NCBI GenBank assembly: GCA_024403555.1
Contig: JAKSRP010000012.1
Coordinates: 1 to 43,685 of the forward strand
Length of the DNA: 43,685 nt
Direction: 5' to 3'
Origin: Lachnospiraceae bacterium
GTDB lineage: Bacteria; Bacillota; Clostridia; Lachnospirales; Lachnospiraceae
This document shows, piece after piece, positions 31,326-40,945 of this stretch (position 1 is the stretch's first letter; each line of letters opens with the position of its first letter). The position numbers and the translations under genes were made by a program. The notes below the pieces were generated by a model. The model searched no databases and had not been told where the DNA came from. It saw nothing but the letters and a program-made list of their open reading frames with translations.

Positions 31326-31333
31326 GTTTATTC

Positions 31334-31673
31334 GAGTCAGACAAATGGTCGCGCCGGTTTTTACCGGTGAGGAAAGTCCGGGCTTCACAGGGCAGGATGC
31401 CGGATAACGTCCGGTGGGAGTGATCCCAAGGCCAGTGCAACAGAGATATACCGCGTAAGCATCCATTGCTTACGTAAGGGTGGAAAGGCGAGGTAAGAGC
31501 TCACCGCCTGGCTGGTAACAGGCAGGGCACATGTAAACCCCATCCGAAGCAAGACCAAAACGAAAACGATGGCTTGCCCGGCTAGTTTTCAGGTGGGTCG
31601 CTTGAGCTTACTGGCGACAGTAAGTCGAGACAGATGATCATTCAACGACATAACCCGGCTTATCGTCTGGCTC
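31334..31673 (+). ncRNA. rnpB: RNase P RNA (M1/rnpB)
   Basis: RNase P RNA is the ribozyme that trims 5' leaders from pre-tRNA. The conserved core is clear: GAGGAAAGTCCGGGC at the P4/CR-I region, ACAGAGATATACCGC, AAGGGTGGAAAGGCGAGGTAAG with the GGTAAGAGCTCACCG hairpin, and the closing ACATAACCCGGCTTA that completes P4. The ends pair as P1 (GAGTCAGAC at 31334-31342 with GTCTGGCTC at 31665-31673, one G-U). The length of about 340 bases and the overall shape fit a bacterial RNase P RNA, most likely class A. The 5' end also agrees with the promoter, and a small terminator follows. Confidence 0.96.
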
Positions 31674-31674
31674 T

Positions 31675-31712
31675 GATAGTGCGAAAGCACACATAGAACT
31701 GACTATCTTTTA
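31675..31712 (+). terminator. Terminator of rnpB
   Basis: GATAGT (31675-31680) pairs with ACTATC (31702-31707), followed by TTTTATTT. An inner GTGC-GAAA-GCAC tetraloop hairpin (31679-31690) partly competes with it. It is a modest terminator. Confidence 0.55.
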
Positions 31713-35087: not shown

Positions 35088-36329
35088 ATGAACACACAAT
35101 TATCGTTAAAATATAAAAGAATTTTTATGCATGCTTTTATGGTTGGACTCTTAGGCCAGCTTTATGTTATGCTAGACCCTGCAGAACCATTTTTTGTCAC
35201 CATTTTTGGTGTGGCGCTGCTTGGATATTTCATATTACATATGCAGGATATTCAGGAATATCTGATACTTCCAATTGTATCCGGTCTTTTTGTAGTTGCA
35301 TTTCGAATGATCTTTGACTTTATCTTTCATTTGGCACCGAATACCATTGTTTTAGCGGAAACAGCCTTTGTCTATTATTTATGCTATGGTATTCTGGCTG
35401 TGCTCCTTCTTCCTTTGGTTAAATCGTTTAAGAGTTCTCACAAACGGGAATATCTGATTCTTAGCATCGGAATGCTTGATTTTTTCAGTAATATGGTGGA
35501 ACGGTTTTTCTTTTCCGATGATCTGCATATCTCCATTCAGGAATTGATCATCATTGCGATTATTAGAAGCTTTCTTATTTGGGCGTTTGATCTTATTATG
35601 GAGCGACAGAGAATGCTTACCATCCGAGAGGAACATGAAAAGCGTTATGCAAGACTTAATGATTTCTTAGTCAATATTTATTCGGAAGTATTCTATTTGA
35701 AAAAATCGCAGGCAGACTTAGAACATGCAATGAAAGAGGCGCATAGAATCTATGATGAAAGCCAGAATCCGGATGCACTAAATCTTGCGATTGCCATTCA
35801 TGAAATTAAAAAAGATTACTACCGTTTGGTCAGTGGACTTTCTAATCTGGTGGATAATGTCGATGACAACCACAGGATGTCGGTAAGAGACATTTTTGCA
35901 ATTATAGAAGAAAATATGGAACATCAGAAAAAGGACAGTGGAAAAGATATTACACTTAATTTTATTTGTTATAAGGATGGAATTATTGACCAATGTTATG
36001 ATATATTTATAGTGGTGAACAATCTGATTGTAAATGCAATGGATGCCTGTGGGGAAAAAGGCAGAATCCTCGTAACTTATGAATCTAATGGTGACTATGA
36101 TATTTTCACCGTAATAGATAATGGAAGTGGAATGGAAGAGGAGGTAAAAGAGTGTATCTTTCTTCCAGGTTTTTCTACGAAATTTGATCCACATACCGGA
36201 GAGATGTCAAGTGGTATTGGGCTGTGTCACGTAAAGGATGTGGTTACAAAAAGAGGCGGCGATATTTTGTGTACCTCTCAGATTGGGAAAGGAACGGAAT
36301 TTGTCATTTCCTTTCCAAAAACAATTTAA
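35088..36329 (+). CDS. Sensor histidine kinase, GlnK/YcbA type
   Basis: The N-terminal ~165 residues are a hydrophobic membrane sensor with about six segments. They are followed by a coiled-coil linker and the phosphoacceptor box AIHEIKKDYYRLV with His238. The GHKL ATPase domain has the N box VVNNLIVNAMDACGEKG near 305, G1 DNGSGMEE and G2 SSGIGLCHVKDVV. The H-box form (HEIKKDY) and pairing with a YcbB-type regulator match the glutamine-responsive GlnK of B. subtilis. The stop overlaps AAGGAG of the response regulator, so the two are translationally linked. Expression is likely from the promoter at 34990-35018. Ligand: glutamine or glutamate by analogy (inference). Confidence 0.86.
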   Translation: MNTQLSLKYKRIFMHAFMVGLLGQLYVMLDPAEPFFVTIFGVALLGYFILHMQDIQEYLILPIVSGLFVVAFRMIFDFIFHLAPNTIVLAETAFVYYLCYGILAVLLLPLVKSFKSSHKREYLILSIGMLDFFSNMVERFFFSDDLHISIQELIIIAIIRSFLIWAFDLIMERQRMLTIREEHEKRYARLNDFLVNIYSEVFYLKKSQADLEHAMKEAHRIYDESQNPDALNLAIAIHEIKKDYYRLVSGLSNLVDNVDDNHRMSVRDIFAIIEENMEHQKKDSGKDITLNFICYKDGIIDQCYDIFIVVNNLIVNAMDACGEKGRILVTYESNGDYDIFTVIDNGSGMEEEVKECIFLPGFSTKFDPHTGEMSSGIGLCHVKDVVTKRGGDILCTSQIGKGTEFVISFPKTI

Positions 36330-36343
36330 GGAGAAGAGAAACT

Positions 36344-37222
36344 ATGAATTTTGTGATTATTGATGATGATAAGAGCATTCGCACAATTCTTGGCATGCTG
36401 ATTAGACAAGCAGAATTGGGGAACGTTGTCGCTCAGCTTGAAAGTGGGGAGAATGCGGTGGATGATGTTATGTTTTATCATCCTGACATTTTGCTCGTCG
36501 ATCTTTTGCTGCCAGGCAAAGATGGAGTGCAGATTGTGACAGAGCTCGTTTCAAGAGGCTTTAAAGGAAAGATTATTATGATCTCCTGCGTGGAAGATAC
36601 AGAGATGGTATCAAAAGCGTATGAAGCAGGGGTTATGTTTTATATTAATAAACCAATCAATGCAATCGAGACAACAACCGTACTTACGAATGTAAAACAT
36701 ATGATTGAATTAGAAGAATCCATGTATAAGATTCGTAACGTATTATTTGAAACGGAAACTTCTCAGACACCAAAACCAAGCTCTGGCAATCATGACCTCG
36801 GTAACAAGATTGACAAAGTATTTTCTGATATTGGGCTGATTGGTCTTTCCGGTACGGATGAAATCCGCGAGGTTCTCCTTGAGATTTATCGCATCCAGAA
36901 GATGGAACATCACAAATCCTACCGATTAAAGGATATTTATGCGAAGATTGTAAAGGATAAATACGGAGAAGAAGGTGCGGATATCAACCAGAAGAATATG
37001 GAACAGCGCATTAGACGTGCCATCCAGAAAGCTTTAGCGAATTTAGCAGAGATTGGCTGCGAGGATTATTACGATCCGGTATTTACCCGTTATGCGAACA
37101 TTTTATTTGATTTTAAGCAGGTCCGTCAGGAGATGGCTCACATTAAGGATCCGGAAACCTATGCGGGTAAGGTAAATACAAAGAAATTCATGGAAGGTAT
37201 TCTTACAAAGATTGATAAGTAA
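36344..37222 (+). CDS. Response regulator, GlnL/YcbB type
   Basis: The receiver domain has the acidic pocket IIDDDKS at 5-11, the phosphorylation Asp53 in ILLVDLLLPGKDG, the conserved Ser/Thr in MISC near 81 and Lys103 in YINKPI. The output half (about 135-292) is the YcbB domain (IGLIGLSGTDEIREVLLEIY, EQRIRRAIQKALANLAEIG, NILFDFKQVRQEM), a DNA-binding module seen in the GlnL regulator of glutaminase and glutamine transporter genes of B. subtilis. ATG 36344 is chosen because AAGGAGAAG at 36328 fits; an open frame from 36224 overlaps the kinase and is not the start. At 292 residues it is a little short of the family. It probably controls the divergent symporter-lipoprotein operon. Confidence 0.88.
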   Translation: MNFVIIDDDKSIRTILGMLIRQAELGNVVAQLESGENAVDDVMFYHPDILLVDLLLPGKDGVQIVTELVSRGFKGKIIMISCVEDTEMVSKAYEAGVMFYINKPINAIETTTVLTNVKHMIELEESMYKIRNVLFETETSQTPKPSSGNHDLGNKIDKVFSDIGLIGLSGTDEIREVLLEIYRIQKMEHHKSYRLKDIYAKIVKDKYGEEGADINQKNMEQRIRRAIQKALANLAEIGCEDYYDPVFTRYANILFDFKQVRQEMAHIKDPETYAGKVNTKKFMEGILTKIDK

Positions 37223-37246: not shown

Positions 37247-38425
37247 ATGATGGAATCAACATTAGAAAGAACCTGGGCAGAGATTGATCTTGACAAGGTC
37301 GTCCATAATTATAGAACCTTAAAGGCAAGAATCGGCGAAAACTGCAAGTTTTTAGGCGTGGTAAAAGCGGATTCCTATGGAAGTGGCTCCATTCCGGTAA
37401 GCAAAGTGCTTCAGGAAGAGGGCGCAGATTATCTGGCTGTCAGCAGCATTGATGAAGCCATTGAGCTTCGCAAGCATGATATCACACTTCCAATTTTAAT
37501 CCTTGGTCATACTCCAAAGGAAGAAGTGAAAAATCTCATCAAATATCAGATTACACAGGCTGTATCCTGCATAGAAGATGCTTATGATTACAGTGAAGAA
37601 GCAGGAAAAGCAAATGGTACCTTAACCATTCACATCAAAGCAGACACTGGGATGTCCCGTATCGGTTTTTTATGTAATGATGAAGAATTAGATGCATCTG
37701 TGAACCAGATTGTGGAAGCGATGGCACTTCCTGGTCTTTTGACCGAAGGTATTTTTACTCACCTGGCAGTTTCTGATGAACCTGGAGAATTCTGCAAAGA
37801 TTATACAAACCATCAGATTGCAAACTTTAAAGAAGCAATCGTTAAAGCAGAAGCACGTTCCGGCAAGAAATTTGCCATCAGACATTGTGCAAATACAGGT
37901 GGTGTTGCCAGATATCCGGAAACCTGGCTTGATTTTGATATGGTAAGACCAGGGCTGTTATTATATGGTTACGGCGAATTTGCCGAAGAACTTGGTTTAA
38001 AACCAGTCATGGCTTTAAAGAGCAAGGTGTATGGCATCAAACATTATCCAGCGGATACAAGAATCAGTTATGGCGGTATCTTTACAACAAAAAGACCAAC
38101 CAGAATGGGTATCATTCCATATGGCTATGCAGATGGATTTTTCCGCTGTCTTTCTAACCGTGTGGAAGTCTATACAGAGTCTGGTCTGGTAAATCAGCGT
38201 GGCAAGATCTGCATGGATATGTGCATGATCGACTTGACAGACGTTCCTGAAGTTGGCGAAGGAAGCACAGTTGAGATTTTTGGTAATCTCCAGTCCATTA
38301 ATGATATTGCGGCACTTGCAGGCACGATTCCTTATGAAATTGCCTGTGCAGTCAGCAAGCGTGTTCCACGTATTTATTATCGTAATGGGGAAATTGTTGG
38401 CAAAGAATTGATGTTACGTGGATAA
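37247..38425 (+). CDS. alr: Alanine racemase (PLP-dependent)
   Basis: The racemase interconverts L- and D-alanine for peptidoglycan. The PLP lysine is in GVVKADSYGSG near residue 40; most family members read AVVKANAYGHG, so the conserved His is Ser here. HIKADTGMSRIGF and RHCANTGGVARYP follow. The C-terminal beta domain begins with the catalytic Tyr in RISYGGIFTTKRPTRMGII, then YGYADGFFR and GKICMDMCMIDLT. At 392 residues it is of normal length. There is no strong Shine-Dalgarno, and ATG 37250 is possible. It is 24 bases after the response regulator, so it is probably in that operon. A terminator/riboswitch region follows, separating it from queD. Confidence 0.92.
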   Translation: MMESTLERTWAEIDLDKVVHNYRTLKARIGENCKFLGVVKADSYGSGSIPVSKVLQEEGADYLAVSSIDEAIELRKHDITLPILILGHTPKEEVKNLIKYQITQAVSCIEDAYDYSEEAGKANGTLTIHIKADTGMSRIGFLCNDEELDASVNQIVEAMALPGLLTEGIFTHLAVSDEPGEFCKDYTNHQIANFKEAIVKAEARSGKKFAIRHCANTGGVARYPETWLDFDMVRPGLLLYGYGEFAEELGLKPVMALKSKVYGIKHYPADTRISYGGIFTTKRPTRMGIIPYGYADGFFRCLSNRVEVYTESGLVNQRGKICMDMCMIDLTDVPEVGEGSTVEIFGNLQSINDIAALAGTIPYEIACAVSKRVPRIYYRNGEIVGKELMLRG

Positions 38426-38426
38426 G

Positions 38427-38455
38427 TTGACGCACAATAACCTATCTGATAAAAT
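38427..38455 (+). promoter_or_regulatory. Promoter of the queuosine operon
   Basis: TTGACG (38427-38432), a 17-base spacer, and TAAAAT (38450-38455). The predicted start (~38462) is about 10 bases ahead of the riboswitch aptamer, as expected for a leader RNA. Confidence 0.75.
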
Positions 38456-38471
38456 AATATATTGTGATATA

Positions 38472-38514
38472 AGACAGTTCGCTTGTACCATCCTGTCTAT
38501 AAATAAAACCAGGA
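38472..38514 (+). promoter_or_regulatory. preQ1-I type riboswitch aptamer
   Basis: The layout matches the class I preQ1 riboswitch (type II, like T. tengcongensis): stem AGACAG..CTGTCT, loop UUCGC-UU-GUACC carrying the ligand-binding C, then an A-rich tail AUAAAUAAAAC with CAGG at the end, whose GG can pair with the loop CC (the H-type pseudoknot). The genes that follow (queD, queE, folE, queC) make preQ1, the metabolite sensed. It is a small motif and I did not run a covariance model, but the structure, place and gene context agree. Confidence 0.82.
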
Positions 38515-38534
38515 CTACGTAATGGATTTTATAG

Positions 38535-38566
38535 TGGGGCAAGCATGTATGCTTGCCCCATTTTTT
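38535..38566 (+). terminator. Riboswitch-controlled terminator before queD
   Basis: TGGGGCAAGCAT (38535-38546) and ATGCTTGCCCCA (38549-38560) form a 12-base-pair stem with a 2-base centre (likely a 4-base loop with 11 pairs), followed by TTTTTT. It ends about 10 bases before the queD ribosome binding site, so it must be controlled rather than a plain end of alr. Confidence 0.92.
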
Positions 38567-38588
38567 CCACTAAAAGGAGAAGATTTAG

Positions 38589-39014
38589 ATGTATATTTTA
38601 AAAACACAGAAAGAATTTGATGCGGCGCATTTCTTAAAGGGTTATGACGGCAAATGCAGCAACATCCACGGACATCGCTGGAAGGTCGTTGCAGAAGTTG
38701 GCAGTGAAACTTTACAAAGCGAAGGCAACACTCGCGGAATGGTTGTGGATTTTTCTGAACTAAAAAATGATTTAAAAGCAATGGTTGATTGCTTTGATCA
38801 TAAATTGATTATCGAAACAGGAAGCTTAAAAGAAAGCACGATGGCTGCACTTATGGACGAAGCATTTGCTATCATCGAACTTCCGATGCGTCCGACGGCA
38901 GAAAACTTTGCCAAGTATTTTTACGACGAGTTAAAGAAACTTGGATACATGGTTGTCTCCATGACCGTCTATGAAACACCAAAAAACTGTGCAACCTACA
39001 GGGAGATGTTCTAA
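38589..39014 (+). CDS. queD: 6-carboxy-5,6,7,8-tetrahydropterin synthase QueD
   Basis: QueD converts 7,8-dihydroneopterin triphosphate to 6-carboxytetrahydropterin, an early step to the modified tRNA base queuosine. The zinc ligands are FDAAHFL (His16) and NIHGHRW (two His near 32), and the catalytic Cys is in GKCSNIHGH near 27. FDHKLI and the Glu in VYETPKNCATY near the C-terminus complete the active site. At 141 residues it is full length. AAAGGAGAAG lies before the ATG. Its stop is one base before the queE start. The folE gene two positions later makes its substrate precursor. Confidence 0.95.
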   Translation: MYILKTQKEFDAAHFLKGYDGKCSNIHGHRWKVVAEVGSETLQSEGNTRGMVVDFSELKNDLKAMVDCFDHKLIIETGSLKESTMAALMDEAFAIIELPMRPTAENFAKYFYDELKKLGYMVVSMTVYETPKNCATYREMF

Positions 39015-39015
39015 G

Positions 39016-39684
39016 ATGGCGACATATAAAGTTGTAGAAACCTTCTTAAGCATCAATGGGGAAGGACGAAAGGCTGGTCAGTTAGCTACTTTTGTGCGCA
39101 TGAAAGGGTGCAATTTAAACTGCGCTTACTGTGATACAAAGTGGGCGAATGAGGCGGATGCGTCCTTTACGGAGATGACAAAAGAAGAAATTAAGGCCGT
39201 TGTGGTAGCAAATGGTGCGAAGAACGTAACTTTAACCGGCGGGGAGCCGCTTTTACGAGAAGGCATTGATGAATTATTAGAAGAGTTATTGACGATTCCC
39301 GGTCTTACAATTGAAATTGAGACAAATGGTTCCGTCGATGTTCGTCCGTACTTAATTTACGGGGACAGGGTGACGATGACCTTAGATTATAAATTAGGAG
39401 CAAGTGAGATGGAGCATCTCATGTTTGAACCGAACTTTGACGCTGTGCGTGAATGTGATACCGTAAAATTTGTATCAGGAAGTATCAAAGATTTAGAGCG
39501 TGCAGTGGAAGTGATGAATACACATAGTCTCATCGGAAGATGTGGCTGTTATTTAAGCCCTGTGTTTGGCAGCATCACACCTGCTGACATGGTGGAATTT
39601 ATGAAGGATAAAATGTTAAATGGAGTAAATCTTCAGATTCAGATGCACAAAGTCATCTGGGATCCTGAGGAGAAAGGAGTATAA
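39016..39684 (+). CDS. queE: 7-carboxy-7-deazaguanine synthase QueE (radical SAM)
   Basis: QueE rearranges 6-carboxytetrahydropterin to 7-carboxy-7-deazaguanine by radical SAM chemistry. The substrate/cofactor start is [20 protein letters not shown], then the iron-sulfur triad [10 protein letters not shown] (C-x3-C-x2-C, near 33), and the GGEPLLR SAM-binding motif near 75. At 222 residues it is normal. ATG 39016 has GGGAG at 39001; a longer open frame from 38971 lies inside queD and is not the start. It abuts queD (1 base) and folE (1 base), so the three are translationally linked. Confidence 0.95.
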
Positions 39685-39685
39685 G

Positions 39686-40273
39686 ATGGCAATTGACAGT
39701 GCAGCAATCAAAGAACATATTCGTGGCATCTTAATTGCGCTCGGTGACGATCCGGACCGTGAAGGCTTAAAGGAAACACCGGACCGCGTGGCAAGAATGT
39801 ACCAGGAAGTATTTGAAGGCATGAACTATACGAATGATGAAATCGCGCAGATGTTTGGCAAGGTATTTTTTGAAGATACGACCGACAAAGGCACGAATGA
39901 CATCGTATTAGTAAAAGATATTGAGATTTTTTCTTACTGTGAGCACCATATGGCGCTGATGTATGATATGAAGGTTTCGGTTGCCTATACTCCTGCAGAT
40001 AAAGTGATTGGACTTAGCAAAATCGCAAGAATTGCAGAGATGGTTGGAAAGCGTCTCCAGATTCAGGAACGCATCGGAAGTGATATTGCAGAAATTATTT
40101 CTAAGGTAACTGGCTCAGCAAATGTTGCCGTTATGATTGAAGGCTGTCACAGCTGTATGACGGCTCGCGGCGTGAAAAAGCCTGGTTCAAAAACTTATAC
40201 AGCAACGATGAGAGGAAGATTTGATACCGATCCTGCTCTTTTGAATAAATTAATGATGATGGTAAATCACTAA
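39686..40273 (+). CDS. folE: GTP cyclohydrolase I FolE
   Basis: FolE opens GTP to 7,8-dihydroneopterin triphosphate, the shared precursor of folate and queuosine. Active-site signatures are [15 protein letters not shown] near residue 75 (zinc Cys and His), [18 protein letters not shown] and the C-terminal [19 protein letters not shown], which carries the second zinc Cys. At 195 residues it is a full type I enzyme. AGGAG precedes the ATG. Its place between queE and queC indicates that in this organism the copy is dedicated to queuosine, under the same preQ1 control. Confidence 0.96.
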
Positions 40274-40285
40274 AAGGAGATTCGT

Positions 40286-40945
40286 ATGGCAAAACATAAT
40301 AAAGCTGTGGTCGTATTTTCCGGTGGACAGGATTCGACAACCTGTTTATTCTGGGCAATGAAGAAATATGACGAAGTAATCGCAATTTCGTTTGATTACG
40401 GCCAGAGACATGTACTTGAACTTGAGTGTGCCAAAGATATTGCGAAAAAATATGGCGTAGAGCATCACATCTTAGATATGAGCCTGCTTGGACAGTTAGC
40501 GCCAAACAGCCTTACAAGAACGGATATGGAAGTGGATCATGATGCGCCGGAAGTTGGCACTCCAAACACTTTTGTGGATGGAAGAAATATGATATTTTTA
40601 ACCTTTGCAGCAGTATTTGCAAAGCAGAGAGACATCCATGTATTAGTAACGGGTGTATCTCAGAGCGATTTTTCCGGTTATCCGGACTGTCGTGATGTAT
40701 TTATCAAATCGTTAAATGCGTCCTTAACGCTTGCAATGGACTATGAATTTGATATCATCACTCCGATGATGTGGATTGATAAGAAGGAAACCTGGGCAAT
40801 GGCAGATGAACTTGGGGTACTTGATATTATCCGTAATGAGACCCTTACCTGCTACAATGGTGTTCTTGGAGATGGATGCGGGGACTGCCCGGCCTGCAAG
40901 TTAAGAAGAAGAGGCTTAGAGCAGTATTTATCGACAAAAGAATAA
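40286..40945 (+). CDS. queC: 7-cyano-7-deazaguanine synthase QueC
   Basis: QueC uses ATP and ammonia to turn 7-carboxy-7-deazaguanine into preQ0. The PP-loop is [17 protein letters not shown] at residues 7-23; the zinc-binding Cys motif near the C-terminus is [20 protein letters not shown]. The central [20 protein letters not shown] is the family signature. 219 residues is normal. AAAGGAG precedes the ATG. It is the last que gene; queF and the tgt/queA genes are not here, so the operon makes preQ0, not preQ1, and the later steps must be elsewhere. No terminator directly follows, so the lipoprotein gene may be read along. Confidence 0.95.

Follow-up and report, generated by a model that had tools for sequence, protein, structure and literature searches.

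A predicted preQ1-I-type riboswitch ahead of queD in a Lachnospiraceae bacterium and the candidate role of its 15-base loop in antitermination

The leader of the queuosine operon and the class of its aptamer

Is the leader of the queuosine genes in this Lachnospiraceae bacterium a preQ1 switch, and if so, which strand of the RNA holds back its terminator? The leader comes from a gut bacterium and lies in a stretch of 43,685 nucleotides (contig JAKSRP010000012.1), which is called the window here. All features described below are on the forward strand. The element is very probably a preQ1-I-type switch predicted to terminate transcription.

The leader contains, in this order, a promoter-like sequence, a hairpin, an A-rich tail, a 13-bp terminator with T6 and a ribosome-binding site. 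The promoter-like sequence, seen by inspection and in a promoter scan, is TTGACG followed after 17 bases by TAAAAT (38427–38455), with TG before the -10 hexamer. The preliminary description called this promoter well formed. Its elements are present, but a scan of 38300–38700 finds two such sites against 1.3 in shuffled sequences, and the site is therefore weak evidence alone. AGGAGA (38575–38580), the probable ribosome-binding site of queD, is outside both aptamer and terminator. Four genes follow, all above the NCBIfam cut-offs: queD (38589–39014; TIGR03367), queE (listed open reading frame 38971–39684, with the true start probably further in; TIGR03963), folE for GTP cyclohydrolase I (39686–40273; TIGR00063) and queC (40286–40945; TIGR00364). 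These four genes constitute the route to preQ0. Upstream, an alanine racemase gene (37247–38425) is located between a response-regulator-like gene (36224–37222) and the riboswitch. Two sister loci, L010 and L011, apparently have the end of a similar regulator gene directly before the riboswitch promoter, as judged by eye.

The aptamer spans 38472–38515. Folding and alignment place the strands of P1 at 38472–38477 (AGACAG) and 38493–38498 (CUGUCU), and the alignment places between them a hairpin loop of 15 bases, UUCGCUUGUACCAUC (38478–38492). The A-rich linker L3 is assigned by alignment to 38499–38511. Covariation defines the pseudoknot helix P2. Its loop strand is GUACC with the A bulged (38485–38489), and its tail strand is GGAC (38512–38515), whose partners are 38489, 38488, 38486 and 38485.

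Aptamers of preQ1-I type I bind two molecules of preQ1. In the published criteria, as excerpted from PMC11625349, type I is recognized by three features, namely UU atop the 5' strand of P1, UC ahead of its 3' strand and a tail C, while type II has AC ahead of that 3' strand. The window has U38478 and U38479, and U38491 and C38492 before the P1 3' strand, and these are invariant in 41 of 41 rows of the first alignment (A1, described below), where the row selection itself had required the first T and the last C of the loop. The tail C is C38509, which follows AAAA and is also invariant in A1, although an A-run plus C in the tail was part of that selection. The covarying P1 and P2 point to the H-type pseudoknot topology, and queD, queE, folE and queC supply the queuosine-gene context of type I. 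The preliminary description had recognized a preQ1-I aptamer, which is borne out by the recurrence of the motif in queD leaders of relatives with covarying P1 and P2. It had also called the aptamer type-II-like. This assignment was rejected, because the window has UC rather than AC, and UU, UC and the tail C are type I features by the same criteria.

The type I pocket bases include U6, U7, U16, C17, A30 and C31 (PMC8752633 and PMC11625349, both as excerpts). Based on the alignment, their likely counterparts are U38478, U38479, U38491, C38492, A38508 and C38509, and these bases (U, U, U, C, A, C) are invariant in A1. The type I aptamer of Carnobacterium antarcticus, in the excerpt of PMC8752633, shares with the window the UU, the UC, the A-rich L3, the tail C, C8 and, by alignment, the six pocket bases. 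Its loop has 12 bases, not 15, and its control works by occlusion of the Shine-Dalgarno sequence instead of a terminator. The crystal structure contains A12-U32, G9-A33 and a proposed C10-G34, while the window has a 4-bp GYRCC/GGRC helix. Compared with the crystal register from the text of that paper, the window keeps C8, has C at the position of U32 and contains three extra loop bases, and covariation favours another register.

Distribution of the element and covariation of P2

The motif was first seen by eye in queD leaders, and it recurs across Lachnospiraceae and Ruminococcus. The relatives are loci with a queD relative (the best 80 of 219). A pattern search of 81 leaders returned 67 matches, three of them spurious, and from these came the 52 sequences with a 15-base loop and GACAG whose 41 distinct rows constitute A1. 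A covariance model was trained on these 41 rows, P1 being the sole structure given to it. At E<=0.001 it finds the window and 72 of the 80 queD loci (the best 80 of 219), as well as 160 of 397 genomes of the family, relatives with 12-base loops being counted in both figures. The 49-base span is seen in 68 of the 160 genomes by our own count among the matches listed, and all five genomes of the genus of the window have the 49-base form (E<=0.01). The genome of the window has one copy, and its other matches have E-values of 0.47 or worse. In three genomes (G051, G166 and G210), a 49-base match and a shorter match occur together.

About 59 of 73 aligned rows have the 15-base loop by our own reading. 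Weaker matches of the model are often shorter, with 12-base loops. Among 40 regions around weaker matches in the family, most show the 12-base loop, and two (L179 and L181) show 15 bases. An intermediate series links the two forms. By eye, preQ1-I elements with 12-base loops occur in many members of the family (L166–L205); some of them have a terminator-like hairpin, and some have a Shine-Dalgarno-like sequence in the tail. One 12-base-loop element (L083:949-994), with the tail CUAGGAC, is located some 2 kb ahead of queD instead of immediately preceding it. Another is followed just downstream by a TwoAYGGAY RNA (RF01731, 104.1 bits; L172:224-388).

The preliminary description looked to the Rfam preQ1 models for confirmation, which they did not give. 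No PreQ1 match is found at the gathering cut-off in the window, and at E<=10 over 38400–38700 the nine matches include no preQ1 family (preQ1-I, preQ1-II or preQ1-III) and look like chance. The only gathering-level match in the window is RNase P RNA of bacterial class A (RF00010, 300.2 bits; 31333–31678). RF00522, whose gathering cut-off is 39 bits, gives seven matches of 12.7–18.1 bits over the genome, none in the window, and at the same loose cut-off it matches in 14 of 14 control genomes too. The window shares the general layout of RF00522, but the consensus loop of that model has 12 bases. None of 20 loci with 49-base-span matches reaches 39 bits. Among 20 loci with 12-base loops, 11 score 26.6–31.3 bits at E<=0.05, below the cut-off; overall, 12-base-loop elements in 12 loci score 22–31 bits. 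Given these scores and the 12-base consensus loop, the window element is a loop-expanded sibling. In the open-licence literature searched, neither a 15-base-loop subgroup nor a loop-to-terminator model was found, and the type I set of McCown 2014 may already hold such sequences.

The loop sequence GYRCC and the tail sequence GGRC form a covarying helix of 4 bp in which R is bulged. All 410 of the 410 P1 and P2 cells in the 41 rows of A1 are paired. The rows of a second alignment (A2) were chosen by a model trained on the A1 consensus, and A2 was not fitted to P2. Here 99.1% of P1 cells and 98.2% of P2 cells are paired, with changes on both sides in five of six P1 pairs and three of four P2 pairs. 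For P1 and P2 together in 60 distinct rows, 98.8% of 572 cells are paired against 89.6% after shuffling, and eight of ten pairs change on both sides. With the partners shifted out of register by one to three columns, just 27.8–40.2% of all cells in the structure still pair.

In A2, the P2 pair 16-56 is UA in 27 rows, CG in 12, UG in nine, AU in seven and unpaired in three. The pairs 19-55 and 20-54 show one C-G to U-A change each, and 20-54 also shows one mispair. Over 116 leaders, C16 is never opposite A44 (28 CG, 61 UA, 27 UG), though the pattern used for these leaders requires purines at tail columns 42–44 and C at 45, and so excludes pyrimidine mispairs there beforehand. A tree-based test of 16-56 was underpowered for counting independent events (6 and 12 changes); it gave no opposite cases and one to two supported pairs, which is not significant. 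The alignment suggests that the three additional loop bases and the RC of the tail together extend P2. Such a variant register would allow the limits that the type I pocket sets on the pseudoknot to be tested directly.

The P1 stem GACAG/CUGUC is identical in 111 of 116 leaders. Among 11 leaders picked by eye in which a 12-base-loop element runs straight into the start codon, eight have other P1 stems. P1 seems to be fixed by something beyond pairing, perhaps because CCUG can pair alternatively with YAGG of the tail.

Terminator and predicted antiterminator in the window

The preliminary description had placed a terminator before queD, and folding agrees. A 13-bp stem of 38533–38545 with 38550–38562 encloses the loop 38546–38549, with T6 behind (38561–38566). 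The minimum-energy fold contains all 13 bp, and the inner 12 bp account for -21.4 kcal/mol. A simple terminator scan of 38300–38700 did not list this hairpin, its sole match being 38359–38371, so the call rests on folding.

The loop sequence GCTTGTACCA (38481–38490) faces TGGGGCAAGC (38535–38544) in the 5' arm of the terminator. The duplex has eight Watson-Crick pairs, one wobble (38486-38539) and one mismatch (38487-38538); the coordinates, the bases and the proposed complementarity at nine of ten positions are therefore all correct. By folding, the antiterminator extends further than had been proposed. Its predicted 5' strand (38481–38503) pairs 38481–38486 and 38488–38490 with 38535–38544 and also 38497–38503 with 38528–38534. 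Its predicted 3' strand is 38528–38544, of which 38533–38544 is also the 5' arm of the terminator.

Before the 3' arm of the terminator exists, the best fold is this antiterminator of 16 pairs, with a minimum energy of -18.0 kcal/mol for a transcript ending at 38546, against -11.1 kcal/mol when P1 is forced instead. The probability of loop-to-arm pairing is 0.91–0.99 for transcript ends 38544–38552, 0.43 at 38554 and 0.001 at 38556, by which end the antiterminator has yielded to the terminator. When the bound aptamer is masked, the terminator forms (-28.0 kcal/mol). The full-length terminator fold is far more stable (-33.6 kcal/mol), and antitermination must therefore be kinetic. These are thermodynamic energies of nested structures only. 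The loop-arm pairing uses 38485–38489, the loop strand of P2, and hence cannot coexist with the pseudoknot. In this model, folding on the ligand would exclude the loop-arm pairing.

The following mechanism can be considered. In the bound state, preQ1 would complete the H-type pseudoknot between 38485–38489 and 38512–38515, the terminator arm would be left free, and the terminator would form and stop transcription. In the free state, the emerging 38528–38544 would pair with the loop (38481–38490) and the linker (38497–38503), and the 5' arm would be kept from the 3' arm long enough for the polymerase to pass. What the analysis supports directly is the aptamer motif, P1 and P2 with their covariation, the terminator hairpin, the operon and an energetic preference of the 5' arm for the loop as long as the 3' arm is absent. 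The whole reading, a type-I-like preQ1 switch with a 15-base loop that represses queD-queE-folE-queC by premature termination with loop capture, is somewhat favoured. For the loop as the main antiterminator strand, the case is evenly balanced.

Partners of the terminator arm in the genus and in the family

The arm is GGGACAGGC in the four sister leaders and GGGGCAAGC in the window. Both pair with the loop at eight of nine positions, so that five of five members of the genus keep the pairing, and the loop is invariant among them. Two bases set the window arm apart from that of the sisters, and for each of them the 3' arm of the window hairpin has the matching base. We estimate that a pair of random transitions would leave the pairing intact in about one case in six. 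Since the five arms are homologous, they amount to roughly a single event. The chance that a 9-mer arm of matched composition pairs at eight or more of nine positions is 0.8% at the exact register, 5.6% at any register of the loop and 13.8% at any place in the aptamer. Taken alone, the complementarity is only modestly beyond chance.

Loop capture in the fold-based test is 0.66 in the window, 0.71 in L009, 0.80 in L010, 0.68 in L011 and 0.35 in L008, and tail capture is 0.00–0.03 in all five. In a slightly different fold set-up, shuffled arms reach the loop capture observed there in 5 of 300 cases for the window, and in 38, 34, 108 and 242 of 300 for L009, L010, L011 and L008, respectively. By duplex energy, four of 105 other arms beat the window arm (-13.6 kcal/mol) on its loop, and all four are those of the sisters (-13.7 to -15.0).

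A terminator of -10 kcal/mol or better follows the aptamer in 95 of the 116 leaders; two sets of shuffled copies gave 8 and 11. Of the 116 leaders, 106 were used for duplex tests, 105 for a control with swapped downstream regions and 96 for fold-based capture. Over the 96 leaders, loop capture exceeds 0.4 in nine against 7.9 in shuffles (z -0.3), which is chance level. With swapped arms, the loop duplex has a mean rank of 0.488, and 9.4% of 106 leaders fall below 0.05. With shuffled arms, 11 of the 106 pass p<0.05 for the loop, and five of these 11 are from the genus of the window. These results are read as no family-wide effect of the loop, the slight excess in the duplex tests being largely due to that genus. 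The loop-to-terminator switch of the preliminary description is partly supported for the window, where the pairing is the preferred fold before the terminator, excludes the pseudoknot and keeps eight of nine pairs throughout the genus; as a general feature of the family it is not supported. The control with swapped downstream regions (whole-aptamer capture 0.399 against 0.368) was uninformative because all arms came from related leaders, and it was dropped in favour of shuffling the arm letters only.

The same riboswitch could use the 3' strand of P1 (CCUGUC) as the antiterminator partner. The loop match would then be a by-product, since the loop and the P1 3' segment resemble each other. The arms of L008–L011 contain GACAGG, which complements CCUGUC exactly, and the resulting duplexes have energies of -11.2 to -13.3 kcal/mol. 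In the slightly different one of the two fold set-ups, before the terminator is formed, the P1 3' strand catches the arm of L008 wholly (0.77 against 0.11 for the loop) and that of L011 partly (0.48 against 0.36). By duplex energy, this strand also has the most arms at p<0.05 (19 of 106, against 13 for the tail and 11 for the loop). However, L009 and L010 prefer the loop in the same set-up, the pairing in the window is weak (-5.2 or -5.9 against -13.6 for the loop), and in the fold-based test the P1 3' strand does no better than chance (1 of 96 leaders against 2.0 in shuffles). The ranking of segments by duplex energy differs from the fold-based ranking. The P1 3' strand is an unlikely main partner.

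Control through the tail strand or the linker, as in relatives with a tail signal, is likewise improbable in the window. Here the tail would form a hairpin with 38525–38533, preQ1 would act through pseudoknot formation or pausing, and the loop match would be chance. In the fold-based test over 96 leaders, the tail captures 27 arms above 0.4 against 11.45 in shuffles (z 6.8), and no other segment of the aptamer exceeds chance; the region separating aptamer and arm captures 21 against 7.05 (z 5.7). The queC switch of Bacillus subtilis, in the excerpt of PMC11625349, has its A-rich L3 tail in the antiterminator, not the loop as proposed for the window. That switch resembles the predicted one in repressing queuosine genes by ligand-dependent termination, although its aptamer is type II with AC before the P1 3' strand. 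In the full-length minimum-energy fold of the window, the A-rich tail does form a hairpin with U-rich sequence downstream. Yet this hairpin does not compete with the terminator, and the values for capture of the arm by the tail are 0.00 in the window and 0.00–0.09 in the four sisters over the two set-ups, even though the tail duplex of L010 has p 0.022. That there is no ligand switch at all, only a conserved hairpin with a constitutive attenuator, is very improbable: preQ1 binding is only predicted and neither the window nor 60 loci of relatives have a PreQ1 match at the Rfam cut-off, but the pocket bases are invariant in A1, the pseudoknot covaries, a queuosine operon follows and the intermediate series leads to the 12-base-loop elements scored by RF00522.

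The 15-base-loop leaders of other Lachnospiraceae have the same aptamer and mostly terminators, and those fetched through queD precede queD, but pairing of their arms with the P2 tail strand is above chance, whereas the arms in the genus of the window pair with the loop strand. Where the family shows a folding signal, it is plausible that the P2 tail strand is what the terminator arm competes for; in this genus, the folds seem to point to the loop strand instead. It can be speculated, with some doubt, that a large uncatalogued preQ1-I subgroup of Clostridia combines the 3-base loop insertion, a re-registered and fully Watson-Crick P2 and terminators, and that the genus of the window swapped strands, its arm mimicking the tail strand of P2. 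If so, the loop that binds the ligand would also catch the arm, and the ligand and the terminator arm would compete for the same loop bases.

The element would thus do an ordinary job, repression of queuosine genes by termination, with an unusual version of a known aptamer. Loop capture is a partly supported and reasonable local model, not a rule. Since the element stays under the Rfam PreQ1 cut-off in the window and in all 60 loci scanned, Rfam would leave queuosine regulation in the family unannotated. Should the loop pairing prove real, the competition of ligand and terminator for the same bases would make a very short switch, and the relatives would show that an expression platform can change its strand while the aptamer stays fixed.
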